From IMG/VR virus record IMGVR_UViG_3300011115_000220, positions 1 through 50,291 of that record: a DNA stretch of 50,291 nucleotides; one strand, given 5' to 3'. The translations under genes and the position numbers were made by a program. The DNA comes from a virus. The notes beneath the pieces are model-generated. The model was not told the DNA's origin. It worked only from the letters and a program-made list of their open reading frames with translations, and made no database searches. Within the stretch, counting starts at the first letter, position 1. Each line of letters opens with the position of its first letter. Positions 10,999 through 34,957 of this stretch are shown here, in pieces.

Positions 10999-11229
10999 TC
11001 AAGCAGAAGTAGAGTGCGGGGCGAGTATAACCTCCCTGCGCCATACACGCAACCCATACACGCCATTTTCTATAACTTGTTTTGAAACAACGTCTAAACC
11101 CAACCTGGCGCACTCGCTCATAACAAACTTTTGCACCTGCTTCCTCTGTAGGCAAGGTATAAAGAAAGACGTTCCGGGCTGAAACTTAACCCATTCAATC
11201 AGTATCGACAGGTTGAATACCGTTGTCAT
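10999..11229 (-). CDS. Small conserved-looking phage protein of unknown function
   Basis: This 76-residue protein is the last gene of the leftward operon and overlaps the end of the primase-helicase gene by 35 bases. It carries a compact aromatic core, EWVKFQPGTSFFIPCLQ, followed by an amphipathic helix (RKQVQKFVMSECARLGLDV) and a strand (GVYGLRVWR). This looks like a small alpha/beta fold with no catalytic signature. The ATG at 11227-11229 is the only reasonable start. It lies directly upstream of the terminator and is probably co-transcribed with the replication genes. I do not recognise the family. Confidence 0.65.
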   Translation of the reverse strand: MTTVFNLSILIEWVKFQPGTSFFIPCLQRKQVQKFVMSECARLGLDVVSKQVIENGVYGLRVWRREVILAPHSTSA

Positions 11230-14044
11230 CTAGCAACACATTCTCATTAAAGAAGTCCAGTTTAGTAGTGTCAAAGCACAGGGCGTTCACAGGGGCTTGC
11301 ATGTTTGCAAGGGTGCCAGCCGTCATGCGTTTCTTCTTGGTGTCAACCAGTGCTTTACTCTTGCGGTAGCCACTCAAGGACTCTTCGTAGTTGATAAAGT
11401 TCTTAGAGCAATCGTCTCGGTAGGTGCGGTTCACCACATACAGCATCTTGGTATCGGGCTCGTAGCGTGCAGTCAATGCGCCACGTGGCTCCTTAATCGG
11501 CCCATGCTCTAATCCGTTCTTAGCCTTGTCGCCATTGATCACAAGAATCTCATGGAAGTGACGTTGCAAAAAGCCACCTAAGAAATCGTCACCGTCAAAC
11601 ATGTATTCACGATTGCGAATACGGGTCTCATTAATTAAGCCCACTGCGTAGTTAAACACTGGCTTGATCGGTATGTCGTGCAGTCCAAGGTACTTGGCAA
11701 TAGAGCCACCAGTTATAGCTAGTGACGCCATAAGAGCCCAATAGCGTTCAGCGTTCTTAATACCAGCGGCTTGCTCAATACGCACCTGCACATCAGCCAT
11801 CTTAGCTTTAACCATAGGCAACTGACCCACAAGAGCCTGAGAGAACGGCTCCATTGCATGCCCATAGTTGTTCATCAATTGACCAAAGTGTTGCCGTGCC
11901 CAAGTCGCATCGTCAAATGGGTCAGGTTTGATGTTGATCTCCAAAATCCTCTTTAACTCGCCATCTGGAAAGCCTTTTATGGATAACAGTGCGTCAGTCA
12001 CGTACCGGTTGGATGAAGTGATCAAGCCAGTTTGAAACTTGGTATCGTTCCTACGCTCTGCGTTCTCGTGTTGCTTCAAACGATTCTTGCCACGACCTGA
12101 AGTCACGTCATACACTTGGTTTGACATTTGCTCGGGCGGCATATTTGTGATCTCGTCCATGGTCACTGCCAAGTTCTGCATCACACCAAGGCGGCTCATG
12201 CGTGAGTTGTATGTGTCCTTGGGGGAGAGCAAGAGTTCCTTGGGTCTGCCGTAGATACTGTTGATGGCTTGCAAGATTGTGGTCTTGCCTGAACCTGACT
12301 CACGGCTAACTAAGTTGAGCAAGAAGCCGTCAAGTGCTGTGAACTTCATTAGCATCGTGCCAAACCCCATAAAGAAAGCAAAGGCTCTAGCCTCCATACC
12401 TTCACGACCATAGGCGTTGATTGTGTTCTTCCATACTTGGAAGTCGCCCTTAACTTGGAATAGCGGCACCAGTGGTAGTGTGGGCGCAGATGGCGGGCTA
12501 TATACCGTCTCAGTTGCACGGATTTCTCTGTCACCAATAATGATGGCTGACTCGTCCTCAACCCAACCAAATTGTTTGTGCGCTTTCTCAGCTTGTGAAT
12601 TCATCTGTAATTCCTCAACCCATTTTGTAACGTAGTACATGAGTGCGTCTTGTTTCTTTCCAAGAGCAGTCACGCCAAATGAAGCTACTGTTGCAATAAA
12701 CTTGTCCTTAGACAGCACGTTGGGCAGGGTCATAATCCACTCACGCACTCCGTCTCTAGGTAGGTGCAACCGCAGTAGCAGGGTCTCACCTAAGTCGGGG
12801 TCTTGCATACGCTTGACTACATAGAAGTCATAGGGGTACACAATCTCTTCTGTATCGTTGCCATCTTTGTCTTTGGCACGTTGGTATATACCGCCCATCT
12901 TGCCCCTGAAGAATGGAAAGGGGTACTTGGGAATTACAAACGTCTTGGCTTCTTTAGTCTCAGGCTCTAGGTCTGTGACGATGTTGTCTTCTTCAGTGGC
13001 TTCAATGATTTCTTTGCCAATCTGAATAGGGGATGTGATTTTTAGCTTGCAGCCCTCACAGCCTTGTGCAAACAACTTTTTAAATGTCTCGCAAGTGTAG
13101 GGGCCCCGCGTCTCGTTGGCTTTGCGATCAGTCTCACGCTCTGAATAGTCAGGGTGCTGATTAGAGATGACATGGATGGCTTTGTCTCTATCGACACACT
13201 GTTGAGCAATACTCAGCCCCGCCCGCCACAAAGGTTCATCTATCGTTGTTTGGTTGTGGTAGATGTTCAAGAGTTGATTGCATCCATTGCCTTCAACGGA
13301 CTTAATCAGGATGGTCTTGAAGCGGGACTGACTGCTACCCATCAGTGCAAGGGTCAGTGGGTCTAGCTGACGTTTGAAGTCAGCCTTGTCCAGCATCTTT
13401 AAAATATCTTCAGACGGTACAAGAAGTTTTTCAATCTCGTCAATCGTCATTGTGGGTGCTACGTATAGCACTTCCACTGGAATAGGATTGGTTGGGTCTT
13501 TTACGTGAAAGGTTTCAGGCACCCTAAGAACACGTGCGGCTTCGCCAGTAACGGCAGGGTCAACATCAAACTTATGTTCAACGCACAACTCTTTAAGGCG
13601 GTCAGCATGGCTCCTCCACTGCTTACGTGGGATAGCCTTATCCAGTACCCAATACACGTGGGCACCCAAACCCGACTTTACGATAGTCGGTCGTGGTAGC
13701 TTTGTTATCTTACAAAAGCTTTTTAATGCAATTAACCCTTCGCCCAAATCTGCAAAAGGCTTACCAGTGCCGCAATCAAGATCAATATAAAACGACTTTA
13801 GATAAAGCGCATTATTCGTAGTACGGCCCTCTTGCGGGTCGCCATACTTAGCCATAGCAAAGAACGCATTAAATTCTTCTTGCACTAACACGTCTGCTTG
13901 CGTGCTTATGTCATCTATGCTCTCTACAAACTTCTGCCTAACAACATCTTTTTCGTTAACTGTCTTGATTCCGAATGTGCAGTAGTGCTCGCCTTGCTCT
14001 AGTGGTGGGAGCACCAGTGCGAGAAACTCTTTTCTCGAAATCAT
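11195..14044 (-). CDS. AEP-type primase fused to superfamily helicase (primase-helicase)
   Basis: This is a 949-residue two-part replication enzyme. Residues 1-200 are an archaeo-eukaryotic-type primase (prim-pol) domain: the metal-binding pair D88-x-D90 in SFYIDLDCG, the nucleotide-binding S124GLGAH129, and a basic segment RVLRVPET (171-178). A Cys cluster at about 318-332 (YTC-x11-CEGC) with an upstream His may bind zinc. Residues about 370-800 form the helicase: Walker A RESGSGKTT (K587) and Walker B LAVTMDE (D630-E631), resembling the DUF927/D5-like ATPases. It should lay primers and unwind the fork for the phage PolA encoded upstream. The SD AAGGAC precedes ATG 14044. Confidence 0.9.
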   Translation of the reverse strand: MISRKEFLALVLPPLEQGEHYCTFGIKTVNEKDVVRQKFVESIDDISTQADVLVQEEFNAFFAMAKYGDPQEGRTTNNALYLKSFYIDLDCGTGKPFADLGEGLIALKSFCKITKLPRPTIVKSGLGAHVYWVLDKAIPRKQWRSHADRLKELCVEHKFDVDPAVTGEAARVLRVPETFHVKDPTNPIPVEVLYVAPTMTIDEIEKLLVPSEDILKMLDKADFKRQLDPLTLALMGSSQSRFKTILIKSVEGNGCNQLLNIYHNQTTIDEPLWRAGLSIAQQCVDRDKAIHVISNQHPDYSERETDRKANETRGPYTCETFKKLFAQGCEGCKLKITSPIQIGKEIIEATEEDNIVTDLEPETKEAKTFVIPKYPFPFFRGKMGGIYQRAKDKDGNDTEEIVYPYDFYVVKRMQDPDLGETLLLRLHLPRDGVREWIMTLPNVLSKDKFIATVASFGVTALGKKQDALMYYVTKWVEELQMNSQAEKAHKQFGWVEDESAIIIGDREIRATETVYSPPSAPTLPLVPLFQVKGDFQVWKNTINAYGREGMEARAFAFFMGFGTMLMKFTALDGFLLNLVSRESGSGKTTILQAINSIYGRPKELLLSPKDTYNSRMSRLGVMQNLAVTMDEITNMPPEQMSNQVYDVTSGRGKNRLKQHENAERRNDTKFQTGLITSSNRYVTDALLSIKGFPDGELKRILEINIKPDPFDDATWARQHFGQLMNNYGHAMEPFSQALVGQLPMVKAKMADVQVRIEQAAGIKNAERYWALMASLAITGGSIAKYLGLHDIPIKPVFNYAVGLINETRIRNREYMFDGDDFLGGFLQRHFHEILVINGDKAKNGLEHGPIKEPRGALTARYEPDTKMLYVVNRTYRDDCSKNFINYEESLSGYRKSKALVDTKKKRMTAGTLANMQAPVNALCFDTTKLDFFNENVLLDDNGIQPVDTD

Positions 14045-25140: not shown

Positions 25141-25426
25141 TTTTGCACTCTTTAAATAGATTTTTTAATTCGATGTACTCATCGTAGCTGAGATACATCA
25201 CCAATGTACCATCTCCTGTTCTTCTACCTAGCTTCTCTCCTTTCTTACGCTTGTTGATCTCACACAGCTTCAGTAAAGCTATGCGCTCCTCTACATAGTC
25301 AGGCACTTTCGTACCATGCATCAATGTATCAATCACGAATGAGTAGTTGTTTAGAACATCTATGTGATGCCACCCACCATCATCAGTCAACACTACTCTC
25401 GCTACATACGGCTTTTTAACCCTCAT
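25121..25426 (-). CDS. Hypothetical protein, probable leaderless start
   Basis: With ATG 25426 the protein has 101 residues; ATG 25432 would add two, but it lies upstream of the predicted transcription start. The sequence is a small alpha/beta-type protein (VKKPYVARVVLTDDGGWHHI), with a basic middle (INKRKKGEKLGRR) and a helical end (SYDEYIELKNLFKECKNEK). No Shine-Dalgarno is present, and the A of ATG 25426 falls exactly at the position expected for +1 of the promoter at 25461-25433. It overlaps the following wHTH gene by 20 bases. Function unknown; first gene of its transcription unit. Confidence 0.6.
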   Translation of the reverse strand: MRVKKPYVARVVLTDDGGWHHIDVLNNYSFVIDTLMHGTKVPDYVEERIALLKLCEINKRKKGEKLGRRTGDGTLVMYLSYDEYIELKNLFKECKNEKDSS

Positions 25427-25432
25427 ATCCAT

Positions 25433-25461
25433 AATATATGGAACTCTTATAGGTTTGTCAA
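25433..25461 (-). promoter_or_regulatory. Sigma-70 promoter, leftward (TTGACA-17-TATATT)
   Basis: Minus strand TTGACA (25461-25456), a 17-base spacer and TATATT (25438-25433). It would drive the regulator, nuclease and polymerase genes from 25426 down to at least 17712. Seven bases downstream of the -10 box falls the A of ATG 25426. Confidence 0.85.
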
Positions 25462-25472
25462 TAGTTTGAGAA

Positions 25473-26279
25473 TTAATTTTGTTCGGGTGTTGCGTAAATC
25501 CAATAGGTATTTGTACTCATCTTCATGCCGACCTCGGGGATGAATGTGTCAGCCTCAACCATACGCAACATAGCAACTTGTTGTTGCATGTTCTCGGGCA
25601 TCTCTCCCATACTCTGATAGGTATAGTTGAAGTCACCAAAAGTAACTTGCGTAGATTCATCAGGATTGATAAAGACATGTGTCGCCTTGCGAGATTCGTT
25701 CTTCCTACGCATGTGTTCAGTAAACATTGGCATGCCTTCTGTAACGATACGCTTAAACTTGTCTGACTGAAACTCTACACCATGAGCTTGAAGATACTGT
25801 ACTTCAGCGAATAATTCGCTTGGCTCTATTGCAACCACATCTCTAAGCTTCCATCTGAACTCATCACGCCACTCGTCATCATGGTTACTGAACCTACTAG
25901 ATGTAAGCCCTGCGATCTCGCTTGGTGCGAACGGCTTGAAGTAATCCTTGAGGAACTTACTGACCTTCTTGGGGTCATTGGTTGTTCTTGAGTAGTAGTC
26001 ATCGTTGTGCTGTGCATACTTCTCGTTGTTAATTAGTCTGCTACGCACCTCATAAACTTGTTTGCTGTTCTTGTCTAAACCGCAGTCACGCAGTGTGCCC
26101 ACGATGTTATGCACCTTCGTGTTCTTGGCAGGGAATCTGCTGTCCTCAAAGACAATCAAACTACCAAAGTTGCGAGCAGTGACAGTAATTGGAAACCTAC
26201 TGACTTGTGTGCGTCTGAAGTCTGCAATCAGTTGTGTGAAGATTGGATTCATCTCTTCGGGGTTAATTATGTTTAGCAT
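25473..26279 (-). CDS. Hypothetical protein, last gene of the MoxR-vWA unit
   Basis: This 268-residue protein has SD AAGGAG five bases before ATG 26279 and a palindrome just upstream. No recognised domain. It has an N-terminal strand-rich part (RFPITVTARNFGSLIVFEDS), a charged middle (YSRTTNDPKKVSKFLKDYF), and a C-terminal part with strands (ATHVFINPDESTQVTFGDF) and a hydrophobic end. It lies downstream of the MoxR ATPase, vWA protein and phosphoribosyltransferase and may be a partner or substrate, but that is inferred from position only. Confidence 0.6.
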   Translation of the reverse strand: MLNIINPEEMNPIFTQLIADFRRTQVSRFPITVTARNFGSLIVFEDSRFPAKNTKVHNIVGTLRDCGLDKNSKQVYEVRSRLINNEKYAQHNDDYYSRTTNDPKKVSKFLKDYFKPFAPSEIAGLTSSRFSNHDDEWRDEFRWKLRDVVAIEPSELFAEVQYLQAHGVEFQSDKFKRIVTEGMPMFTEHMRRKNESRKATHVFINPDESTQVTFGDFNYTYQSMGEMPENMQQQVAMLRMVEADTFIPEVGMKMSTNTYWIYATPEQN

Positions 26280-26291
26280 CTCTACTCCTTA

Positions 26292-26305
26292 TTAACATCT
26301 GTTAA
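26292..26305. promoter_or_regulatory. TTAAC-ATCT-GTTAA palindrome before the 268-residue gene
   Basis: Perfect palindrome with the ATCT centre (AGAT on the coding strand). Here the Shine-Dalgarno AAGGAG is separate and lies between the palindrome and ATG 26279. Confidence 0.7.
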
Positions 26306-26306
26306 T

Positions 26307-26912
26307 TTAATAATGTGCCCCGAACTCGGGGTTCTTTTGGAACTTCTCTACATACTCTGACCAACTCATCGCAAAGTCATCACATGTAAACAAACTAATA
26401 AGTTCTTTCGCACCCACATAATTGTTTTTATGTGTGCCTTGTGTCTTATCTACCAGTGCTACATAGAAGTCCGCAGTTGGTAAATTAAACGCATGCAGAA
26501 TACTTACTGATTTCTTCAGCGTATCTTGCGACCCTGCTAGGTCATCTACAAGCACTATTGGTTTGCCTGTTGCTACTCCTTCCGTAAAATTAAGTAACCC
26601 ATACACCTTGCGTGACTTCTTGACTGAGATCATTGGCGTACCCAAGATAGCTGACATAGCTAACCCAAGTGGCACACCCGCATCTTCGCAAGCACCGATC
26701 TGTATGTTCTTGTCAGGCAACTTGTTGACCAACAACTCAGCCGCCCCAATCACAAACTTCGGGTCAAACAAACATCTACGCAAATAGAACTGCCATGAGT
26801 AACCCCTGTTCGGGGCTTTCGCAGGGAGATTCCTACCATTGGGCGGTACTCGGTAGATGCCTCTGTGTTCAACCTCATTACGCAAGTACTCCCATATCAT
26901 TTGCTCGTTCAT
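26307..26912 (-). CDS. Type I phosphoribosyltransferase-like protein
   Basis: This 201-residue protein has a PRTase core: IQIGACEDAGVPLGLAMSAI (the ligand-facing strand and turn), then MISVKKSRKVYG, and the PRPP loop PIVLVDDLAGSQDTLKKS with acidic pair D123-D124. The loop differs from the usual DDxxTTGxT, since GSQDT replaces TTGGT. Such enzymes transfer a phosphoribosyl group from PRPP to a base, as orotate phosphoribosyltransferase does. A substrate cannot be named. It is preceded by a palindrome carrying its SD and lies between two genes of the MoxR-vWA unit, which is unusual for a nucleotide-salvage enzyme. Confidence 0.75.
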   Translation of the reverse strand: MNEQMIWEYLRNEVEHRGIYRVPPNGRNLPAKAPNRGYSWQFYLRRCLFDPKFVIGAAELLVNKLPDKNIQIGACEDAGVPLGLAMSAILGTPMISVKKSRKVYGLLNFTEGVATGKPIVLVDDLAGSQDTLKKSVSILHAFNLPTADFYVALVDKTQGTHKNNYVGAKELISLFTCDDFAMSWSEYVEKFQKNPEFGAHY

Positions 26913-26917
26913 ACTTA

Positions 26918-26931
26918 TTAACTCCTGTTAA
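26918..26931. promoter_or_regulatory. Start-associated palindrome with embedded RBS (PRTase gene)
   Basis: TTAACTCCTGTTAA, one of eight identical copies of a 17-mer. On the coding strand its centre reads AGGAG, nine bases before ATG 26912. Confidence 0.85.
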
Positions 26932-27765
26932 TCAGAACATTGACAGAATCTTATCGACCTCGGCTTTGACGCTCAGTCGTGTCCCATCATCCTTACGCAG
27001 ATCACCTGCAGATACACCTACAAGCGCACTCTCTAACTTCTTTCTCATTACCTCTAGCTTCGAGTCATTGGTTACATTCAACTTAGTGAGCAGTTCACAC
27101 AAGTCCACAGCGTTGTTTACCAATGAGTCCCGAAAGATTTGTTTATCTTGCCCTGCAAGTTTGTCACTCATCTTAGTTAGACAGTCGTGTAGCCTGTCCC
27201 ACGCATCTTGCATGGCATCAGACAACTTGTTATTGAAAAACTCCTCGTACTGTTGTTGCAACTCAGCCCGACCCGCCTCGTTCACATCAATGCGAAAGTC
27301 ACCTACATCGGGTACTGGCAAGAACACATACTTAAACTTGAACTTACTCTCTAGCTTTGAAGCATGTGGGTACTCCTCTGCATCAAACAGATCACCTAGT
27401 TGAAATGCTGCTGCCGTAACAAGTGTGTCGTAATCTTCCAAAAACCCTTGCACAGACTCAGCGAACTGGTTCTGGTAATCGCCTAGCGTAGCCTTGTACT
27501 CAAAGAAGTTTTTCATTGGTAGTAGGCGTGAGCCACCATCAGACCAAGGTAGCGTCTGTTCGTAATGCCAAATGCGTATTGCTGAAACAAGTTTCTGCAA
27601 CTCATCCAATCGCTGTGTTCCTGCCAATAGCTTCTTGTGATAGTTACCCGCCCTCGCCTTGGTATGCTTGGCAGAATCAATCTCATCGGATACTTTCTTA
27701 TCCATCTTGCGACCTGTCCACGCTGAGATGTTCAGGTCTACTAACATTGCACTGTTCTGTATCAT
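26932..27765 (-). CDS. Hypothetical helical protein of the MoxR-vWA unit
   Basis: This 277-residue protein starts MIQNSAMLVDLNISAWTGRK and is largely helical. It has a central part LPWSDGGSRLLPMKNFFEY and later VFLPVPDVGDFRIDV. The pattern reminds me of DUF3150-type proteins, which accompany MoxR ATPases in some phages and bacteria, but this is memory and not confirmed. The long helical second half (AELQQQYEEFFNNKLSDAMQ) may form a coiled coil. It starts in an ATGA overlap, and its C-terminus ends next to the palindrome for the PRTase gene. Confidence 0.65.
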   Translation of the reverse strand: MIQNSAMLVDLNISAWTGRKMDKKVSDEIDSAKHTKARAGNYHKKLLAGTQRLDELQKLVSAIRIWHYEQTLPWSDGGSRLLPMKNFFEYKATLGDYQNQFAESVQGFLEDYDTLVTAAAFQLGDLFDAEEYPHASKLESKFKFKYVFLPVPDVGDFRIDVNEAGRAELQQQYEEFFNNKLSDAMQDAWDRLHDCLTKMSDKLAGQDKQIFRDSLVNNAVDLCELLTKLNVTNDSKLEVMRKKLESALVGVSAGDLRKDDGTRLSVKAEVDKILSMF

Positions 27766-28004
27766 TTTGTTATCACTCCTTCTGTTGATGCATTTAATAA
27801 TTTAGCCATAGCAATGGCTTCTTCTTGTGTCATACGCCCATACTTGTTGGCGTCTGTTGGTCTTGCTTTTATAAACTTAACCGCCTCGTACCTAATAAGT
27901 ACCTCCTGTTTCCATGTAGCTATGTTGTAGTTTTGCTCGAGTATTAGCGTGACTGTGTGGTACTGACCTTTCTCAGCACGCTTGTCAAACCATTGCTTGA
28001 ACAT
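27762..28004 (-). CDS. Small hypothetical protein between vWA and helical protein
   Basis: This 80-residue protein has a variant palindrome (loop AGGT) before its ATG. It has an N-terminal strand pair (YHTVTLILEQNYNIATWKQE) and a helix (TQEEAIAMAKLLNAST). It ends in ATGA with the next gene. Not recognised. Confidence 0.6.
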   Translation of the reverse strand: MFKQWFDKRAEKGQYHTVTLILEQNYNIATWKQEVLIRYEAVKFIKARPTDANKYGRMTQEEAIAMAKLLNASTEGVITK

Positions 28005-28007
28005 TTA

Positions 28008-28021
28008 TTAACACCTGTTAA
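28008..28021. promoter_or_regulatory. Start-associated palindrome, variant loop
   Basis: TTAACACCTGTTAA, one base different from the common copy; on the coding strand the centre is AGGTG, seven bases before ATG 28004, a weaker Shine-Dalgarno. Confidence 0.75.
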
Positions 28022-29218
28022 TTAGTTGACACGAACAGTCTTACCGATCTCGGATGTCACATCGGTTGTAATACCCCACAGCGTAGGACACAACCAACCC
28101 TCACCCCATGAGCCTACATAACCATCGGTCAAGATCACTGCACACTCAGCCTTGATCTTCTTGTTGTTCATGTAGTCCACGATGCATTGTGGGTCAGTGC
28201 CTCCACCACCTCGGGGCTTAGTACTGGCTAACAAGTTATCCAGTTGGTCTTGCTCATACTTCTCATGCTGACATACTCGGGTATCCCAATACAACAAGTC
28301 GATACCCTCGGGTTTGACAGTATCGCAAATCTTCTTGACCTCACCCAAGAACTGACCGACCTCTTCGTCACCGATAGAACCTGACATGTCAATACCAATT
28401 ACGATACGACCGACTGACTCACCGATCATTGAGGGCATGTAAACATCTTGTCCAATCCATCTGCGTGATGGACGCCTCCATGTGCTCTCATCCTTATCTG
28501 CGCAGAATGATGTAACGAACTCACGCATAGCCTCACGCCAATCTACCTTGGCTTCAAGTACATCGCTGATCTCTCGGGGTACATTCGCACTCATCTTCCC
28601 TGCGAGAATCGCACCCTGACGCAATGCTTGGTCAATGTCCTTGGCAAGTGTTTCTTTCTCCTCGTTGGTCATGCCCTCGGCACTCTCCCAATCATGCTCG
28701 TCTAGTCCATTGCCTACCTCGATCACTGGCACATCCTTGCCCTCTTGATCACCGACTGTCTTGACATGAATCGTGCCACCCTTGGCTTCTTCCTTGAGCA
28801 TGCGATACACAGTACCCGCATCCAATCCCTTGTACTTGGGGTCAAGCAATGCACCATCGGGCAGAGACACAAAGTTGTTGTCACCATCCATGATCATTAA
28901 GTTGATCACATAGTCACACGCCATGTTCGCTAGCGTTGGGTTCTCTTTGTAGAGATGCTTCCATACAGTTGTATGCCTGAAAGCCTTGTGCAGATTCTCA
29001 TGCAATATCACACCCTTGCGTTTGTTAGACGCTTGCTTAGCCATGTAGTCACGACCATAGTAAGTGTTGCGACCATCGGTGCATGCGGTAGGCACATCGT
29101 CCTTCACCTCGGTGCGACCGATCATAATAATCCCTGAGTACAAGCAATACTTGGGGTCTTTCATTAAGGCAACGTGATCTTTCTGAATCAGTTGCTCGAC
29201 TGTTAGTTTTGTAGCCAT
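28022..29218 (-). CDS. vWA-domain protein with metallopeptidase-like N-terminus
   Basis: This 398-residue protein has two parts. The N-terminal region contains H73ENLH77 in GVILHENLHKAFRH, an HExxH zinc site of the kind seen in the metallopeptidase-like domain before vWA domains (DUF2201 type). Residues about 270-398 are a von Willebrand A domain with an intact MIDAS: D277-M-S-G-S281, T341 in GGGTDP and D365 in ILTDGYVG. vWA proteins encoded beside MoxR ATPases usually work with them as a chaperone-like pair. The gene starts eight bases after the AGGAG of a palindrome and follows the MoxR gene directly. Confidence 0.88.
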   Translation of the reverse strand: MATKLTVEQLIQKDHVALMKDPKYCLYSGIIMIGRTEVKDDVPTACTDGRNTYYGRDYMAKQASNKRKGVILHENLHKAFRHTTVWKHLYKENPTLANMACDYVINLMIMDGDNNFVSLPDGALLDPKYKGLDAGTVYRMLKEEAKGGTIHVKTVGDQEGKDVPVIEVGNGLDEHDWESAEGMTNEEKETLAKDIDQALRQGAILAGKMSANVPREISDVLEAKVDWREAMREFVTSFCADKDESTWRRPSRRWIGQDVYMPSMIGESVGRIVIGIDMSGSIGDEEVGQFLGEVKKICDTVKPEGIDLLYWDTRVCQHEKYEQDQLDNLLASTKPRGGGGTDPQCIVDYMNNKKIKAECAVILTDGYVGSWGEGWLCPTLWGITTDVTSEIGKTVRVN

Positions 29219-29222
29219 GTTA

Positions 29223-29236
29223 TTAACTCCTGTTAA
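29223..29236. promoter_or_regulatory. Start-associated palindrome with embedded RBS (vWA gene)
   Basis: TTAACTCCTGTTAA, identical to the common copy; AGGAG is eight bases before ATG 29218. Confidence 0.85.
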
Positions 29237-29240
29237 CTTA

Positions 29241-30350
29241 TTAAAACAACCATTGATTTTTCAACGCCCAGTCTTTGAACTCTTTGTTCATCACACAGAA
29301 CGCTTGCTTAGCTTGCGACTTCATTACACTGGTAGCAAACAATGCTTGCCACTCCATGTCCATCCGTTGCAAGTAGGTCATCCACTTGGGCAGAGAATCT
29401 TTCTCCACTCTAGTGATCGCACTAAACACCAAGATACATTTCGCAACTGTATCGGTTGGCATCTTCGTAGTAGCAGGGCTTGCCATAATCGCATCCCATG
29501 TCGGCAACTTGTCCACCACAGTAAAGAACGCTTGCATGTCACGGCTTGCGCTCTCACCGATAGTGCCTGTCAGCATAGAGATAGTCAGCGAGTCACCTAA
29601 CTCTGATCTGCGCTTTGCAATGTGACTAGCCTTCTCTAAACTTCTTGGTGTAACCACCGCACCCATGCCCGCACGAGTAGGGTTAAATATATATGGGTTA
29701 TCCTTCTGACTTGCATCTGTGTAACTTGCCAGTGCATGAGGGAACTGCTTGACCCATGCAATAACCTCGGGTGCTACATCGTTGGTGATTGCCCAATCAA
29801 TCCACTCGTCTGCATCAGGCTTGCGTACAGTTGTCATACACACACGATTGCGAGCATGCGCTTCGAGCATGTCACCCACACCATCTGTTAGTAAGTTAGT
29901 CGTACCAAACACAATCGAACCCTTGGGCAAGTAGTGGTCACCAATGCGTTGCTCTAGCATGAGAGTCAATAGCACATTCTTCACAGCCTTCATCGCCTTG
30001 CCGATCTCGTCAAGCATCACGATCACTGGCTTGCCTGTGTGCATCTTGAACCTAGCGTTAGGTGCAAACTTAGTTACCTTCATACCCTCGTCAACTAACG
30101 CACCATCGGAGATCAGTCCATTACGAACTTGAACTGTGTAGGGCAAAGCAAAGTCACCAAGATCAAGCAAGGTACAGTCGATGTATGCGATCTCATAATC
30201 GGGATACTGCCCAGCCAAGACTTTTAGCATGCTTGACTTACCAATTCCTGGCTCGCCCTGACCGATTACAGTAACATCTTTACCTACGATGCCGATGCTC
30301 TTCGCAAAGTCTTGCAATGAGACTGTGTGACCAAAATTTAAAACTGACAT
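29241..30350 (-). CDS. MoxR-family AAA+ ATPase
   Basis: This 369-residue AAA+ ATPase has Walker A GEPGIGKSS (K38), Walker B VIVMLDEIGKA (D114-E115), and FGTTNLLTDGVGDML as the sensor-1 region. This matches MoxR/RavA-type ATPases. ATG 30350 is used because the upstream extension lies in the promoter leader. MoxR proteins remodel or load partners that bear vWA domains, and the next gene is exactly such a partner. It is the first gene after the exact-consensus promoter, so it should be strongly expressed early. Confidence 0.88.
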   Translation of the reverse strand: MSVLNFGHTVSLQDFAKSIGIVGKDVTVIGQGEPGIGKSSMLKVLAGQYPDYEIAYIDCTLLDLGDFALPYTVQVRNGLISDGALVDEGMKVTKFAPNARFKMHTGKPVIVMLDEIGKAMKAVKNVLLTLMLEQRIGDHYLPKGSIVFGTTNLLTDGVGDMLEAHARNRVCMTTVRKPDADEWIDWAITNDVAPEVIAWVKQFPHALASYTDASQKDNPYIFNPTRAGMGAVVTPRSLEKASHIAKRRSELGDSLTISMLTGTIGESASRDMQAFFTVVDKLPTWDAIMASPATTKMPTDTVAKCILVFSAITRVEKDSLPKWMTYLQRMDMEWQALFATSVMKSQAKQAFCVMNKEFKDWALKNQWLF

Positions 30351-30369
30351 AGCGCACTCTTTCTGCTGA

Positions 30370-30383
30370 TTAACAGCGGTTAA
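30370..30383. promoter_or_regulatory. TTAAC-AGCG-GTTAA palindrome in the MoxR leader
   Basis: Palindrome with a different centre, about 55-60 bases downstream of the expected transcription start and 20 bases before the MoxR ATG. It carries no SD; a GAG-containing site lies after it. Confidence 0.7.
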
Positions 30384-30404
30384 TAAATTGATTCTCAGGT
30401 TCAC

Positions 30405-30431
30405 TAACAGTTGGTTACTTTACCACTGTTA
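30405..30431. promoter_or_regulatory. Inverted repeat at the start of the MoxR transcript
   Basis: TAACAGT (30405-30411) and ACTGTTA (30425-30431) form a perfect inverted repeat with a 13-base gap, directly after the -10 box and covering the expected +1. It is a candidate operator or early RNA hairpin. Confidence 0.6.
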
Positions 30432-30436
30432 TATAC

Positions 30437-30465
30437 ATTATAACCTATATCGGGTTGAATGTCAA
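30437..30465 (-). promoter_or_regulatory. Exact consensus sigma-70 promoter (TTGACA-17-TATAAT), leftward
   Basis: Minus strand TTGACA (30465-30460), a 17-base spacer, TATAAT (30442-30437). Both hexamers and the spacing are perfect. The transcript would start near 30430 and run into the MoxR and vWA genes. Confidence 0.93.
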
Positions 30466-30500
30466 GCGTTTTAAAATAAATTTGAATTGTGGATTCCCTT

Positions 30501-31379
30501 TCAAAGTGTGTTGGTAACTGCTTTGCCCGAGGGCTTGACCTCTACAATTTTGTGTATCTCCTTGGCTCGCTTGGCTACCTCAAAGATACGACTACGCAGT
30601 AGCGTTTGTGAATACTTGCAGTCATAGAACTCAACCCTGCGTTGCCATGCGTTCGGTGTACCCGCCATGATTTCAACCATATCTACCTTGGCAAGTCTGC
30701 GTTCTTCTACATGGTGTGAATCACCCAAGTAGTAACTCAAAAGATACAAGTACTCGGAATCATCACATGTCGCTATGTGGTCATACATTGCATCCGCATG
30801 CATGTTGCTCAGCTTGTTGTGATCGTAAGTACCCCAAGGACTTACCTCGACCCCTACCTCCATGCGTGTGTCATGCATAACCCATCCGTCTGACATTTTC
30901 AAGAACGCCTCACAAAAGTTGACGAACGGCATTAAAGGGGCGCGTGCTTCCTTAGCCAAGTCACGATCTACAACTCGTTGCTGTATGACGATTTCCTCTG
31001 CTGGTTCCCATCCCATGCCCTCACCTAAATACTTTAGACGCAACTCATTATTTATAGGTAGCAAGTCATCTCGGTTTTGTATCCACAGTTTCTTGTACCG
31101 CTTGAAGCATCGGAACGGACTGTGCTCATGGATAAACTCAGCAGTGGTTGGTGTTGCCCAATCACCTGACCGAATCACAATGTCACCATTGGGAAAGTAC
31201 TCTACACACTCGGTGTTGTAAAGCTTTGCAATGTAGGATTTCCCGCCATGCCCATCCTGAGAAGTGATAGTTTCCCAATCTCTTCTACGCTGACCGATGG
31301 GCTTGACCTCAACTGACCGCCCACGAATGGGCTTGGTGTTGTTGAACTTATCTTCATAGAACTTATAGCTTGAATGCAT
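30501..31379 (-). CDS. Hypothetical protein of unknown function
   Basis: This 292-residue protein starts at ATG 31379, eight bases after a palindrome AGGAG. The N-terminal half is strand-rich and basic (IRGRSVEVKPIGQRRRDWET, then YIAKLYNTECVEYFPNGDIV). The C-terminal half is helical and charged (EERRLAKVDMVEIMAG). No catalytic motif is obvious. It ends 36 bases upstream of the MoxR promoter -35 box and is the last gene of the upstream small-gene unit. Confidence 0.65.
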   Translation of the reverse strand: MHSSYKFYEDKFNNTKPIRGRSVEVKPIGQRRRDWETITSQDGHGGKSYIAKLYNTECVEYFPNGDIVIRSGDWATPTTAEFIHEHSPFRCFKRYKKLWIQNRDDLLPINNELRLKYLGEGMGWEPAEEIVIQQRVVDRDLAKEARAPLMPFVNFCEAFLKMSDGWVMHDTRMEVGVEVSPWGTYDHNKLSNMHADAMYDHIATCDDSEYLYLLSYYLGDSHHVEERRLAKVDMVEIMAGTPNAWQRRVEFYDCKYSQTLLRSRIFEVAKRAKEIHKIVEVKPSGKAVTNTL

Positions 31380-31383
31380 TTTA

Positions 31384-31397
31384 TTAACTCCTGTTAA
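31384..31397. promoter_or_regulatory. Start-associated palindrome with embedded RBS (292-residue gene)
   Basis: TTAACTCCTGTTAA, common copy; AGGAG is eight bases before ATG 31379. Confidence 0.85.
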
Positions 31398-31398
31398 T

Positions 31399-31899
31399 TT
31401 AATTGTCGAACCAAAATACAAAACGGAACTCATTGGCTTGGGTCATATCGCCTATGCCTGACACACCACACATCTCTTGCAAGAACTGAAGCACTGCATA
31501 GTTCTTATCTGCCTTCAAAGTGTTTTGGTGATACTCGGTCATGGGCTCTTCTTCCCCACTCTCTAGGGCTTCAACGCCATAGTAGTCATCAGCAAAGTCG
31601 GAGGCACTCAGCCACGAATGGCTATGCCCATCACCCTCCCATGCATTAGCGAACATCTGCACCATCTCGCTCACATCATCGGGCAACCCTTGCGGGTCAC
31701 GCCCATCACCACGCACACTCGCAAGTCGGGCAAAGAACTGGTAGTTGCGACCATTGACTACATAGAACATGTGCCCGAAGTTAGGCTTGTCATGCCCCCA
31801 AAACGCCTTGGAATGAATGGCATGGTCAAGGTTGCCCATGTACGCCCAATTACCCGAGGGCATCTTGCGCTCTATAAATGTATGAATATCTGCGCCCAT
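31399..31899 (-). CDS. Hypothetical protein, MGADIH-type phage family
   Basis: This 166-residue protein starts at ATG 31899 after a palindrome RBS. It opens MGADIHTFIERKMPSGNW and has NYQFFARLASVRGDG, GLPDDVSEMV and HSHSWLSASDF. This order (MGxDIH start, R-N-Y-x-F-A-x-L-A-x-VRG, GLP-D-S and HSHSWL) matches, from memory, a widespread phage family of unknown function. The conserved Asp/His residues could bind metal. No role is assigned. Confidence 0.65.
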   Translation of the reverse strand: MGADIHTFIERKMPSGNWAYMGNLDHAIHSKAFWGHDKPNFGHMFYVVNGRNYQFFARLASVRGDGRDPQGLPDDVSEMVQMFANAWEGDGHSHSWLSASDFADDYYGVEALESGEEEPMTEYHQNTLKADKNYAVLQFLQEMCGVSGIGDMTQANEFRFVFWFDN

Positions 31900-31903
31900 G
31901 TTA

Positions 31904-31917
31904 TTAACTCCTGTTAA
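31904..31917. promoter_or_regulatory. Start-associated palindrome with embedded RBS (MGADIH gene)
   Basis: TTAACTCCTGTTAA, common copy; AGGAG is eight bases before ATG 31899. The right arm contains the stop codon of the upstream gene. Confidence 0.85.
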
Positions 31918-32431
31918 CTTGTTGACTGGCTCGCTGTGCAATGTCCTTTTGCACTCGGGCTATAACATCTCGTTGCTCACCATTACTTAACTGGTAAGAC
32001 CTCGCCCGTAGCGTTGATTTGGCTTGCTCTACTTGCCACTCTAGTTTGCGTAACTCTAGTGAAAGTTCCTCTCGCCTCTGACTCGTAGACTCCTCTATAT
32101 CGTATGCATGAAGCAGTGCCTCGTAATAGCTGTCACGCACAGCCTTACGCTTCTCCTCCTTGATCTGCTCAAGGCGTAGTTGTTCCTCGAACATGGTCAT
32201 GGCATGCTTACCTGCCTCGGTCACGCACCACCCCTCGTACTTGACCCCATCTTGAACATAGGGAAAGGTGTTTATCCATGCACTGCGCACAAGCACACCG
32301 AGGGTGCGGTTAGTGTTACCCGAGAACACTAGGTCTTTGATTGACTTTGTGTCCTCAATAGATTTCAACGCATCGTATTGAACTTGCGATGTGTACCGCT
32401 TCAATGCGGGTAGATGTTCGTGTCTCATCAT
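31904..32431 (-). CDS. Winged-helix-like protein with long coiled coil
   Basis: This 175-residue protein has an N-terminal part (YDALKSIEDTKSIKDLVFSG, RTLGVLVRSAWIN, then VKYEGWCVTEAGKHAM) that resembles a wHTH with a wing. Residues about 80-165 are heptad-rich (LRLEQIKEEKRKAVRDSYYE). The last codons, INRS or VNRS type, come from the palindrome itself. It starts in the ATGATG of the 28-residue gene overlap. Confidence 0.6.
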   Translation of the reverse strand: MMRHEHLPALKRYTSQVQYDALKSIEDTKSIKDLVFSGNTNRTLGVLVRSAWINTFPYVQDGVKYEGWCVTEAGKHAMTMFEEQLRLEQIKEEKRKAVRDSYYEALLHAYDIEESTSQRREELSLELRKLEWQVEQAKSTLRARSYQLSNGEQRDVIARVQKDIAQRASQQVNRS

Positions 32432-32514
32432 GGTCTCCAGTACAAAAGGTCAAGGGCTAGCACCATAAGGGCTAGAAGAATCACTACTCTTTCCATTTTT
32501 TCCCACTTTGTCAT
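32428..32514 (-). CDS. 28-residue single-pass membrane peptide
   Basis: This short frame begins at ATG 32514, nine bases after the AGGAG of a palindrome, and ends in TGA inside the ATG of the next gene. It encodes a charged start (TKWEKMERV) and a hydrophobic helix VILLALMVLALDLLYW, enough to span a membrane, then RP. The palindrome RBS and ATGA coupling are the same as for the neighbouring genes, so it is probably translated. Candidate small membrane effector; the role is unknown. Confidence 0.65.
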   Translation of the reverse strand: MTKWEKMERVVILLALMVLALDLLYWRP

Positions 32515-32519
32515 AGTTA

Positions 32520-32533
32520 TTAACTCCTGTTAA
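32520..32533. promoter_or_regulatory. Start-associated palindrome with embedded RBS (28-residue gene)
   Basis: TTAACTCCTGTTAA, common copy; AGGAG is nine bases before ATG 32514, and its first TAA is the stop codon of the upstream gene. Confidence 0.85.
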
Positions 32534-32754
32534 CTTGTTGTGATGCGTGTTGTGTACTCAAACCATTCGGCTTGCGTGTAAGGGAAACGCCCATGTTCCT
32601 TGCGGAACATAACTGCATCGCAGTCGGGGCAACCCTTCTCGTAGGACTTGCAAGGCTTCACATGGCGTATGAACCACATGGTATTTGTGTCGCTGAACCA
32701 CGATGGGTTTGCCATGCGCTCAAGAATCTTGTGCTTGTTCTTCCTGACTTTCAT
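32530..32754 (-). CDS. Small Cys-containing protein
   Basis: This 74-residue protein starts at ATG 32754, seven bases after a palindrome RBS. It is basic at the N-terminus (KVRKNKHKILER). A Cys trio, CKSYEKGCPDC, may form a zinc knuckle with His31 or a nearby residue. It is aromatic-rich (WFSDTNTMWFIRH, EWFEY). It ends at the TAA in the next palindrome. Unrecognised. Confidence 0.6.
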   Translation of the reverse strand: MKVRKNKHKILERMANPSWFSDTNTMWFIRHVKPCKSYEKGCPDCDAVMFRKEHGRFPYTQAEWFEYTTRITTS

Positions 32755-32927
32755 TTATTAACTCCTGTTAATTTTGTGTATGCGTACACATAGCCTTGCA
32801 TCCATGTGAGGCGGTCATCGTCACTCAATGGGGAATTTCCGTTGTATCTACCCTTTTCCCATTCGTAGAAAGCATGAGCCGCTTCGTGCATCATTACTCG
32901 GGGGTCACTCATATCTACATCATTCAT
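32751..32927 (-). CDS. 58-residue protein with HEAAH motif
   Basis: This frame is open from ATG 32927, overlapping the TGA of the upstream gene (ATGA), to a TGA overlapping the next ATG. The sequence contains MMHEAAHAFYEWEKGRYNG: an HExxH motif, followed by LSDDDRLTWMQGYVYAY. The last six residues, LTGVNK, are encoded by the palindrome. If translated, it is a tiny protein with a possible zinc-binding helix. It is too short for a classical metallopeptidase fold, so it may be a fragment or a metal-binding peptide. Confidence 0.6.
   Translation of the reverse strand: MNDVDMSDPRVMMHEAAHAFYEWEKGRYNGNSPLSDDDRLTWMQGYVYAYTKLTGVNK
32758..32771. promoter_or_regulatory. Start-associated palindrome with embedded RBS (Cys protein gene)
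   Basis: TTAACTCCTGTTAA, common copy; AGGAG is seven bases before ATG 32754, and it also encodes LTGVN of the upstream 58-residue protein. Confidence 0.85.
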
Positions 32928-33127
32928 ATCATTACCTCGTCTAGTTGTAGGCTTGCTAGTGTCATGCTGAGATACACATAGCGATCACCTTGGGTTAACT
33001 TGCGCACCCAAACACCACGAGGGATGAAGTCCATCACCTCGTACTTGTGCTTGAATCCTTTGTAGTCCTTGCGTATCAGCGTGTCACCAATATGCACAGA
33101 CTTGCCTGTTTTGCGATCAATAATCAT
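32924..33127 (-). CDS. Small SH3-like beta-barrel protein candidate
   Basis: This 67-residue protein starts at ATG 33127 in a TAATG overlap with the upstream gene. It alternates strands and turns (SVHIGDTLIRKDYKGFKHKY, then VWVRKLTQGDRYVYLSM), a pattern typical of small SH3-like barrels. No motif points to a ligand. A translation start further upstream (33181) would be inside the upstream gene and is not needed. Confidence 0.55.
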   Translation of the reverse strand: MIIDRKTGKSVHIGDTLIRKDYKGFKHKYEVMDFIPRGVWVRKLTQGDRYVYLSMTLASLQLDEVMI

Positions 33128-33330
33128 TACATGACCATCGCAAGCGTACTGAATAAGATAATCAGAAACACAATATACCAAGCCATTTGGCGTCTGAATA
33201 TCACCTCACGCTGATAATCACCGAGATAAACCGCTTGCCAAAACTCGCAGTCCCTATTCATGTGATTACCAAGTGGCTTCTGATAATACTGACCGATCAT
33301 TATCTTGCCTGTGTTGTAAGCTTTGTCCAT
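33127..33330 (-). CDS. Small protein with C-terminal transmembrane helix
   Basis: This 67-residue protein starts at ATG 33330 after a palindrome RBS. The N-terminal 45 residues are soluble (TGKIMIGQYYQKPLGNHMNR). Residues about 48-66, MAWYIVFLIILFSTLAMVM, form a transmembrane helix, so it is likely an inner-membrane tail-anchored protein. No lysis motif can be claimed. Confidence 0.65.
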   Translation of the reverse strand: MDKAYNTGKIMIGQYYQKPLGNHMNRDCEFWQAVYLGDYQREVIFRRQMAWYIVFLIILFSTLAMVM

Positions 33331-33334
33331 ATTA

Positions 33335-33348
33335 TTAACTCCTGTTAA
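33335..33348. promoter_or_regulatory. Start-associated palindrome with embedded RBS (membrane protein gene)
   Basis: TTAACTCCTGTTAA, common copy; AGGAG is eight bases before ATG 33330. The stop of the upstream gene is inside the palindrome. Confidence 0.85.
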
Positions 33349-33560
33349 TATTCGCCATCACCGAACGCATACTCACGCTCGAGCATGCACATACGCTTCC
33401 AATACTCTTGCAGTTGGCTCTTGGCTTGCTCAATGTTGCCGTTGTGTGCGGTCAGCACTTCTTGGTAATCGGCACAGTCGAACGCCTCGTAGACCCAATG
33501 TCCACCCTCCTCGTAGTTGGCGTTGGCAAAGTCTTGCAGTTGCTTGATTGCAGTAGTCAT
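33345..33560 (-). CDS. Small hypothetical helical protein
   Basis: This 71-residue acidic protein has SD AAGGAG six bases before ATG 33560. It is helical (TTAIKQLQDFANANYEEGGH, AKSQLQEYWKRMCMLEREY). It has no palindrome of its own and follows the 54-residue membrane gene by one base. Not recognised. Confidence 0.6.
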   Translation of the reverse strand: MTTAIKQLQDFANANYEEGGHWVYEAFDCADYQEVLTAHNGNIEQAKSQLQEYWKRMCMLEREYAFGDGEY

Positions 33561-33561
33561 G

Positions 33562-33726
33562 TCACTCTCCTTCAGTTGTTGTTACGAACTCAATTAAAAA
33601 GCCAAGGCAAACACCCGATGCAACAAGGCAAAGTTTGTGCAAGCCACCATCACCATTGAACCCGACAACCAAACCGATGGTTGAAAGGATGCCAAAACTG
33701 GCAGGGATAAGTCTCTCGTAGTTCAT
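33562..33726 (-). CDS. 54-residue protein with two hydrophobic segments
   Basis: This frame starts at ATG 33726, eight bases after a palindrome AGGAG. It has two hydrophobic stretches (LIPASFGILSTIGLVVGF and LCLVASGVCLGFLIEFV) around a short Gly/Lys loop, so it is probably a two-pass membrane protein. Its last codons (TEGE) encode the SD of the next gene. Such hairpin proteins resemble small holins in size, but nothing else supports that role. Confidence 0.65.
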   Translation of the reverse strand: MNYERLIPASFGILSTIGLVVGFNGDGGLHKLCLVASGVCLGFLIEFVTTTEGE

Positions 33727-33730
33727 TTTA

Positions 33731-33744
33731 TTAACTCCTGTTAA
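33731..33744. promoter_or_regulatory. Start-associated palindrome with embedded RBS (two-pass membrane gene)
   Basis: TTAACTCCTGTTAA, common copy; AGGAG is eight bases before ATG 33726. It encodes the INRS end and stop of the upstream zinc-ribbon gene. Confidence 0.85.
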
Positions 33745-33964
33745 TATCTTTTGGGTTGTTGCGCTTGGGGTTGACCAGTCGCAGATCATCGGGATTGTGG
33801 ATGTATTGATACGCACCCTTGCTAAAAGGGATTTCCACAATGTGTCGTTTCTGTCTTGCAAGCTTCTCGCCACATAGCATGCAGTGCTTGAAACCGAGAG
33901 CCCATCGAGCAAGCGGTATGTCGTCACCACAGTTTCGGCAAGGGTGATATGCAATATTGTTCAT
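33731..33964 (-). CDS. Small zinc-ribbon protein
   Basis: This 77-residue protein has two CxxC pairs, CRNC and CMLC, 17 residues apart, giving a treble-clef or zinc-ribbon fold. Its C-terminal half is basic (KRHIVEIPFSKGAYQYIHNP). SD AAGGA is close to ATG 33964. It is the first gene after the repeat array and could bind nucleic acid or a host factor. Confidence 0.65.
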   Translation of the reverse strand: MNNIAYHPCRNCGDDIPLARWALGFKHCMLCGEKLARQKRHIVEIPFSKGAYQYIHNPDDLRLVNPKRNNPKDINRS

Positions 33965-33997
33965 ATTTTCCTTAAAAGTTGCCTATTTTTTAAGCAT

Positions 33998-34097
33998 TGT
34001 TCCGTCTGTTCCACTGTGTTCCAGTGGGGTGAAATGAGAGAAAGTGCAATGAAATCAACGTGTTATACGCTTCGTTGTCAGCCTGTTCCAATGTTCC
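33998..34097. repeat. TGTTCC array, left half of a mirrored module
   Basis: Five TGTTCC hexamers, at 33998, 34007, 34017, 34084 and 34092, have start-to-start spacings of 9, 10, 67 and 8. The order is the exact inverse of the right half. It lies in non-coding DNA before gene 33964. Confidence 0.85.
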
Positions 34098-34198
34098 GCC
34101 CAAAATATGGGTTTGGACAAAGCGTTGTCTGTCTAATCTACCCGAATCACTTAACATTGTAAAGTATTTTGCGGTTCGTCTACCTTTATATATATTAT
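34098..34198. promoter_or_regulatory. Central non-coding segment between the two repeat halves
   Basis: About 100 bases. It includes GACAA-AGCG-TTGTC, a perfect stem near 34115-34131, and an AT-rich stretch (ACCTTTATATATATTATGG, ends 34200). A weak minus-strand promoter TTTACA-17-TAGATT is possible. This would be a natural unwinding or binding centre if the module is an origin. Confidence 0.5.
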
Positions 34199-34298
34199 GG
34201 AACAATGGAACAAACATACTAAAAGTGGTAAAAAAGCCTTTAAAATCAACGACTTGCTGTGTTCCAGTCGAACGGAACATTGCGGAACAAGCGGAACA
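34199..34298. repeat. GGAACA array, right half of a mirrored module
   Basis: Five GGAACA hexamers, at 34199, 34207, 34274, 34284 and 34293, have spacings of 8, 67, 10 and 9, mirroring the left half exactly. One further TGTTCC at 34260 and a GGAACA at 34368 lie outside the pattern. The intervening 61 bases differ in sequence from the left half. Confidence 0.85.
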
Positions 34299-34311
34299 GA
34301 ATACTTTCGTA

Positions 34312-34325
34312 TTAACATCTGTTAA
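34312..34325. promoter_or_regulatory. TTAAC-ATCT-GTTAA palindrome beside the repeat array
   Basis: Perfect palindrome with the ATCT centre, in non-coding DNA 14 bases after the right hexamer cluster. There is no gene start here, so this copy is not a ribosome site. Confidence 0.7.
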
Positions 34326-34382
34326 CAACATCATCATCATCCCCCTTGCTACTATCATAAAAAGGTTGGAACAAAAATCGAG

Positions 34383-34410
34383 ACAAAGAAAAAGCCCACC
34401 GAAGTGGGCT
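34383..34410 (-). terminator. Rho-independent terminator with UUCG loop, leftward
   Basis: AGCCCAC (34393-34399) and GTGGGCT (34404-34410) enclose a tetraloop that reads TTCG on the minus strand, followed by TTTTTCTTT. It ends the transcript of gene 34430-34957. Confidence 0.92.
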
Positions 34411-34429
34411 GATTCAGTCAGTTGCCTGA

Positions 34430-34957
34430 TCACTTATTAACAAGTGTTAATACAGCTTGCAATGCTTTTGTGGTTTCAACAAGGTCAAAGTCTGCATCGG
34501 TTGACTTTTCGCACTTCTTGATCAAGTCCGCAATCTGCACTTGAATTTTGGTTTTCAAGCTTGTTACTTCACTTTCCTTTTTATCTTTTGGGAAAGCATA
34601 GCCCACAATGCGGGTGAAATATGTGTCGCATGTTGACCTTGCGTCTTTTTTAGCCTGATACACATATTCCCATGTGTCGCGTTGACCCGCATCTAATGCA
34701 TTAAACTCTTTTGAGTTTTTGCGAGGTAATTCAGTGTTTAAAGCTTTTATATGCTTCTTGTCTAATGCGGGTAATATTGCGTCTGCAATGAATTGCGCTT
34801 TTACTTCAAGCATTGCATTTTCAGACCCAAAAAAAGCCCGCACTTCAGAACCCGCCAGTTGCCATTTATTAACAGTGTTAATATCATTGCGAACCGCATT
34901 TGTGCAAGCGGTTACTGTTGATTCATAAGAAGCGGTTTGTGTGTTTGTGTTTGTCAT
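34430..34957 (-). CDS. Hypothetical early protein, single-gene unit
   Basis: This 175-residue protein has its own control region upstream and a strong terminator downstream, so it is the only gene of its transcript. It starts after AACGGAGAGATAT. It is polar and helical: residues 14-30 (TACTNAVRNDINTVNKW), 45-65 and 100-160 (KTKIQVQIADLIKKCEKSTD). It has no recognised domain. Two palindromes fall inside the coding sequence, one at its end (encoding LTLVNK). Isolated expression and its position at the edge of the early region fit an early host-directed or regulatory protein, but that is inferred. Confidence 0.65.
   Translation of the reverse strand: MTNTNTQTASYESTVTACTNAVRNDINTVNKWQLAGSEVRAFFGSENAMLEVKAQFIADAILPALDKKHIKALNTELPRKNSKEFNALDAGQRDTWEYVYQAKKDARSTCDTYFTRIVGYAFPKDKKESEVTSLKTKIQVQIADLIKKCEKSTDADFDLVETTKALQAVLTLVNK
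34437..34450. promoter_or_regulatory. TTAAC-AAGT-GTTAA palindrome at the end of the early gene
   Basis: Palindrome copy overlapping the last codons and adjacent to the stop of the 175-residue gene, with an AAGT centre. Confidence 0.6.
34869..34881. promoter_or_regulatory. TTAAC-AGT-GTTAA near-palindrome inside the early gene
   Basis: Variant with a 3-base centre (13 bases long), inside codons for INTVN of the 175-residue gene. Confidence 0.5.

Follow-up and report, generated by a model that had tools for sequence, protein, structure and literature searches.

In phage P4, the initiator is the alpha protein, a primase-helicase fusion whose C-terminal winged helix recognises iterons; the P4 iterons and their layout differ from those described below. 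The origins of SV40 and papillomaviruses carry inverted short initiator sites placed for two facing helicase rings, although the DNA-binding domains are unrelated and the layout is much shorter than that of the array reported here. SaPI Rep recognises, via its C-terminal domain, an iteron origin directly downstream of its gene, and the related Cch2 was shown to bind the repeats of its putative origin (PMC7581432, eLife). The origin of plasmid pRN1 is a symmetrical element just past an AEP primase / SF3 helicase gene, but takes the form of a 100-bp stem-loop instead of iterons (PMC4234260). In the record of Streptococcus thermophilus phage Sfi21, a 302-bp non-coding region right after the primase gene is annotated as "origin of replication, phage inhibitory sequence".

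The stretch of DNA analysed here (the window) is a complete virus record of 50,291 bases. It contains a mirrored array of hexamers that is real and far beyond chance. Five TGTTCC hexamers (33998, 34007, 34017, 34084, 34092) are followed by five GGAACA (34199, 34207, 34274, 34284, 34293). The start-to-start steps are 9, 10, 67 and 8 bp on the left and 8, 67, 10 and 9 bp on the right, an exact mirror. A direct recount confirms these ten positions and the spacing given in the original prediction, which missed two more copies, an eleventh within the array that faces the other way (34260) and a twelfth beyond the array (34368). Judged from sequence, the array is probably the replication origin (ori) of this phage, of the iteron type (probability about 85%). 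Its elements are given below together with their occurrence in relatives of the neighbouring gene at 34430, found at loci L003 (nearly identical), L005 (83%) and L006 (46% protein identity).

33998..34022, plus strand: left outer cluster of three TGTTCC (33998, 34007, 34017); the 9- and 10-bp steps recur in L003, L005, L006 and others
34084..34097, plus strand: left inner iteron pair (34084, 34092) with an 8-bp step, from sequence and pattern scan
34098..34198, no strand: AT-rich centre, 64% AT, putative unwinding region, from composition and the enrichment of TATATATA in array centres
34187..34195, no strand: TATATATAT tract adjoining the right inner pair, kept in L005 and L006
34199..34212, minus strand: right inner iteron pair (34199, 34207) with an 8-bp step, from sequence and pattern scan
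34260..34265, plus strand: reverse-facing TGTTCC of the right arm, lying 53 bp beyond the inner pair, a position that recurs elsewhere, since the reverse-facing copies of other arrays peak at 42 and 53
34274..34298, minus strand: right outer cluster of three iterons (34274, 34284, 34293), from sequence
34368..34373, minus strand: lone extra GGAACA beyond the mirrored array, present too in L003 and L005

Across the whole window TGTTCC is not over-represented (30 copies against 26.8 expected), and 11 of the 30 copies fall inside 301 bp. An all-hexamer search returned TGTTCC as the top word of the window, with at least five copies per orientation within 300 bp, and no other hexamer came near 5 + 5 copies in such a span. 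In 40 dinucleotide shuffles of the whole window, no word had more than two copies per orientation in 300 bp. The motif extends to TGTTCCR, with a purine at the last position in 86% of cases. The centre is 64.4% AT in the window; array centres average 61.6%, compared with 53.3% for their loci, and TATATATA is over-represented in them.

The spacing rule, which had been proposed as a check, holds in related phages. L005 keeps all ten hexamers at unchanged offsets, and L006 keeps nine of ten with the mirrored spacing and a centre three bases shorter, although the sequence of the spacers is largely altered. Spacing is thus retained down to 46% identity of the neighbouring gene with most intervening sequence lost. 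This is the opposite of relatives that keep sequence without spacing, or only one or two hexamers. The view that nothing but the hexamers and their geometry is kept stands for most of the spacer sequence; each 61-base spacer, however, also contains a perfect IHF consensus. The sequence does contain the small, perfect stem in the centre (CCCA/TGGG, 34099-34111), but an alignment of relatives shows no conservation, and we discarded it as a conserved element. The array region gave no Rfam match at the gathering threshold for a structured RNA. An open reading frame that crosses the array (33990-34433) was judged spurious because a relative has single-base indels in it.

The layout is widespread. 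Pattern scans recovered mirrored inner pairs in at least 120 viral-contig stretches and in 28 stretches of bacterial or archaeal genomes, where our own estimate of the chance expectation is about 0.03; before filtering, these scan counts include close relatives and repeated contigs. At least 170 loci with mirrored inner pairs are present among the matches listed, 106 after removal of near-duplicates and 84 under a stricter filter. Most one-arm pattern matches also belong to dense arrays, with as many as 15 hexamers, and 226 fetched loci have at least eight hexamers in 340 bp. A nucleotide search with the array region found no match in annotated phages. TGTTCC clusters were absent from roughly 50 kb read of each 61-64 kb genome of Rollin, RHph_TM3_14A and KPP25, the nearest named DUF927/polymerase relatives. 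Besides that of L005, ten more contigs encode a DUF927 protein 68-100% identical to that of the window, and the inner pair occurs in only two of them. The array-less contigs are fragments without the terminase/zinc-finger region and so provide no counter-evidence.

TGTTCC mirrored arrays are also found on contigs of a Prometheoarchaeum MAG (L256) and an Armatimonadetes MAG (L260); these contigs, assigned to an Asgard archaeon and to other phyla, may come from viruses or have been misbinned. At L197 and L243, both arms have identical hexamer offsets of 0, 85, 96 and 105 with an opposite copy at 70, and the arrays lie 5' of a D5 helicase gene, not 3' of it.

The protein that we propose to read the hexamers is encoded elsewhere in the window.

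11195..14044, minus strand: DUF927 primase-helicase, the proposed hexamer-binding initiator (through a C-terminal winged helix), from profile, phmmer and fold searches

A profile search assigns this protein to DUF927 (E = 2e-26). Its AAA+ domain is weakly similar to the model of the SCCmec Cch1 replicative helicase, and phmmer matches the protein to SaPIbov1 Rep (8tch; E = 3e-5). The C-terminus is predicted to be winged-helix-like, with pLDDT mostly 80-94. In a fold search, the modelled C-terminal 215 residues, about 735-949, match SaPIbov1 Rep (8tch, E = 4e-4) and Cch (5dgk, E = 5e-3) best; the next matches are winged-helix DNA-binding folds with insignificant E-values.

Arrays and self-loading helicases occur together. 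Such a primase-helicase is encoded by 43 of 50 array-bearing contigs: DUF927 in 31, D5/DUF5906 (D5/P4) in a further nine and VapE in a further three. The remaining seven have no detected helicase, and some of these are clearly fragments. As a background, the window DUF927 protein has five tblastn matches among 50,697 phage records. The family assignments are backed by TIGR01613 (P4-type primase C-terminus), D5_N, VapE-like and Toprim/primase domains. Among fetched loci with a helicase gene, the array is 3' of the gene in 9/9 VapE loci, 5-323 bp away, and on the 3' side in 13/16 D5 loci, eight of them within 100 bp. At two DUF927 loci it begins 5 bp (L257) and 6 bp (L277) past the stop codon. 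In all three families, helicase-adjacent arrays usually start no more than about 150 bp past the stop codon. Comparison of C-terminal profiles gives E = 3e-4 (probability 38%) for DUF927 against D5 and E = 0.05 for DUF927 against VapE, a weak likeness that leaves common recognition of TGTTCC by the three families putative. For the window itself, we consider it probable that the DUF927 helicase binds the hexamers.

The window thus resembles SaPI Rep and SCCmec Cch in having a self-loading initiator helicase of the same family (Rep/Cch class), multiple short iterons with an AT-rich region, and a C-terminal DNA-recognition domain, which in the window is a prediction. It differs in gene order. A SaPI origin lies directly downstream of rep, whereas in the window 20 kb separate the array and the helicase gene. 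We do not class the array as SaPI-type, since it lacks this adjacency, which is present at other TGTTCC arrays, for example at L257, L277, L261 and the Lactococcus prophage locus L276. The same distance of 20 kb, together with the divergence of the C-termini of the three helicase families, would suit an origin at which a separate initiator binds the hexamers and then recruits the helicase. However, the sole protein family common to phage-type and helicase-adjacent loci is one of 103 aa, present at few genome loci, and in SaPI Rep and Cch2 it is the C-terminal domain of the helicase itself that reads the repeats (PMC7581432). We regard a separate initiator, a variant compatible with the origin assignment, as rather unlikely.

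Sfi21 provides an annotated precedent for the plan of the array. An unbiased hexamer search of whole genomes picked AGTAAC at the origin of Sfi21 and of phage DT1, with 8-bp inner pairs. As in the window, mirrored hexamer pairs with an 8-bp step surround a centre with an AT tract, and outer copies lie further out. In contrast to the window, these arrays directly follow a D5-type primase-helicase gene in phages of a firmicute host, have a different layout of outer copies and use GTTACT/AGTAAC in place of TGTTCC; neither genome contains a TGTTCC cluster. The window therefore has the non-coding mirrored array, the 8-bp inner pairs and the AT-rich centre of the Sfi21 type with another hexamer. The same plan appears at the helicase 3' end in Marinobacter phage PS3 (GGTCAC), Pseudomonas phage LPPA36 (CTGTCC), Paenibacillus phage Bob (TGCAACA) and Lactococcus phage 56701 (TGTAAC). 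Among 15 annotated phages with a D5 or VapE helicase, seven have a hexamer array above all 30 shuffles, in every case near the helicase 3' end, with NatCom_43249 marginal; the other eight have no clear hexamer array beside the gene. A control region from APSE-7, which extends into a toxin cassette, was left out. Pseudomonas phage Rollin, a DUF927 carrier, has three TATGCAA and three TTGCATA in mirror order with 9-bp steps (L282:261-546), accompanied by an IHF-like site and an AT tract. This is no more than suggestive of a candidate origin with another hexamer.

The outward positions of the hexamers follow the helix. Counted from the inner pair towards the outside, same-orientation hexamers lie at about 33, 43, 54, 65-67, 76-77, 86 and 97 bp and are absent between 16 and 29 bp, and opposite-orientation hexamers peak at 42 and 53 bp. 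In non-redundant arrays the iteron period is about 10.75 bp (R = 0.52, n = 272, Rayleigh z = 73), which places the hexamers on one helix face. Between the clusters of the window lie two further elements.

34053..34065, plus strand: perfect match to the IHF-site consensus (AATCAACGTGTTA) in the left spacer, a putative DNA bend
34244..34256, plus strand: perfect match to the IHF-site consensus (AATCAACGACTTG) in the right spacer

The consensus used for scoring, WATCAANNNNTTR, is matched exactly in 33 of 168 strictly non-redundant spacers, compared with 0.4% of random windows, an enrichment of about 47-fold. Among the matches there are 29 distinct 13-mers, with differences at the free positions; this points to selection and not to copying. 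The 50 kb of the window contain eight consensus sites, two of which are those in the array spacers. In arrays from cellular genomes the consensus is rare and mostly absent; IHF is therefore not essential to the general design. A breakdown of genome loci by host group gave very few matches. In this phage, folding of the arms by IHF is reasonably likely.

The attachment site attP of phage lambda combines arm-type and core-type sites with IHF bends. The window array, with IHF sites between two classes of repeat, resembles this arrangement and could in principle be a site for site-specific recombination of the attP type. A search confined to tyrosine integrases found one in three of 50 array contigs and none in the window, and the annotated attP of Sfi21 lies 10 kb from its array-type origin. 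These observations make a recombination site extremely improbable.

We infer origin activity, and from the layout the following assembly of the initiation complex. The TGTTCC(R) hexamers would act as iterons bound by the DUF927 primase-helicase through its C-terminal winged helix. Two helicase rings would sit face to face on the inner pairs that flank the 101-bp AT-rich centre. IHF or a similar host bending protein would bend each 61-bp spacer, folding the outer three-iteron cluster towards the inner pair. We propose that spacing is kept without most of the spacer sequence because the bent spacers bring the outer cluster to the inner pair. The centre would then melt, the two helicases would load and depart in opposite directions, and the family A polymerase of the phage would extend. 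The original idea of an origin, in which a replication initiator would bind one module present in two inverted copies, is strongly backed by conservation, helical phasing, co-occurrence with and adjacency to helicase genes, and the annotated Sfi21 origin.

The genes and signals around the array bear on two further explanations.

33731..33964, minus strand: gene for a small zinc-finger protein directly downstream of the array (context only), a common neighbour in this phage group found at none of the helicase-adjacent array loci
34393..34410, minus strand: intrinsic terminator of the 34430-34957 gene, which parts that gene from the array, kept in 4/4 aligned sequences
34430..34957, minus strand: uncharacterised 175-aa gene upstream of the array (context only)

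Both flanking genes are on the minus strand, so the site does not lie between divergent genes, and many relatives have their array directly 3' of a helicase stop codon; neither observation supports the suggestion of a divergent regulatory hub. A one-way control region, in which a phage regulator such as the zinc-finger protein (33731-33964) or a repressor acts on the hexamers to control the early operon, would agree with the placement of the array between the terminator and the gene that opens a minus-strand run, and with the presence of the zinc-finger gene next to many array loci. However, neither this gene nor the 34430 gene occurs at any helicase-adjacent array locus, where the array follows a stop codon. 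Promoter-like matches around the array are at chance level, and mirror symmetry about an AT-rich centre has no obvious use in a one-way operon. We consider transcriptional control improbable.

The terminase genes of the window are 1.2-3.3 kb from the array, and genes for the terminase large subunit and portal are close to the array in many loci, as might be expected of a packaging (pac/cos) site for the small terminase. In other phages and prophages, however, arrays of the same kind adjoin helicase genes, and mirror symmetry is unfit for directional packaging, which renders a packaging site very improbable.

For an origin, a skew signal had been proposed at 34.1 kb. The GC-skew minimum is near, at 35-36 kb, but lends weak support because genes switch strand there as well.

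Origins of this kind are already known from SaPIs and Sfi21. What looks new is the use of one hexamer and one helically phased layout over three helicase families, together with the IHF sites in the arms and the 20 kb that separate the probable origin from the gene of its helicase. The literature searched, with most subscription papers outside it, does not describe TGTTCC arrays as origins in phages. We tentatively suggest, at slightly less than even odds, a general layout for self-loading phage helicases: an outer cluster, an opposite iteron, an optional IHF bend, an 8-bp inner pair and an AT-rich centre, all mirrored, as a template for two facing rings. The layout would be helically phased across DUF927, D5/P4 and VapE helicases and across bacterial phyla, with the hexamer (TGTTCC, GTTACT, CTGTCC, GGTCAC or TGCAAC) swappable along with the winged helix. 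With such a sequence rule, the replication origins of many uncultivated phages and prophages could be located, and the protein expected to read them could be named. The assembly model, with two rings on mirrored, IHF-folded arms, is testable through simple spacing changes.

Other repeats and genes of the window were observed in passing. In the minus-strand operon at 24933-34452, a palindromic repeat, TTAAC-AGGAG-TTAATA, occurs about 14 times, with variants that have GATG or similar; there are 30 two-strand matches compared with 1.8 expected. Most copies directly precede a gene start, where AGGAG looks like the ribosome-binding site, and two of them (34310, 34435) are to the right of the array. 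The repeat resembles start-associated sequences of some mycobacteriophages. An isolated palindrome, TGTTCCTTGCGGAACA, lies at 32594-32609 within the minus-strand gene 32530-32754. At 28022-30404, a VWA/metallopeptidase gene (DUF2201) adjoins a gene for a MoxR-like AAA+ ATPase, and genes like this pair are also present in RHph_TM3_14A and several array-bearing phages. Between 29 and 360, AACTGG-type words recur in three-base steps, probably reflecting a repetitive protein-coding stretch.
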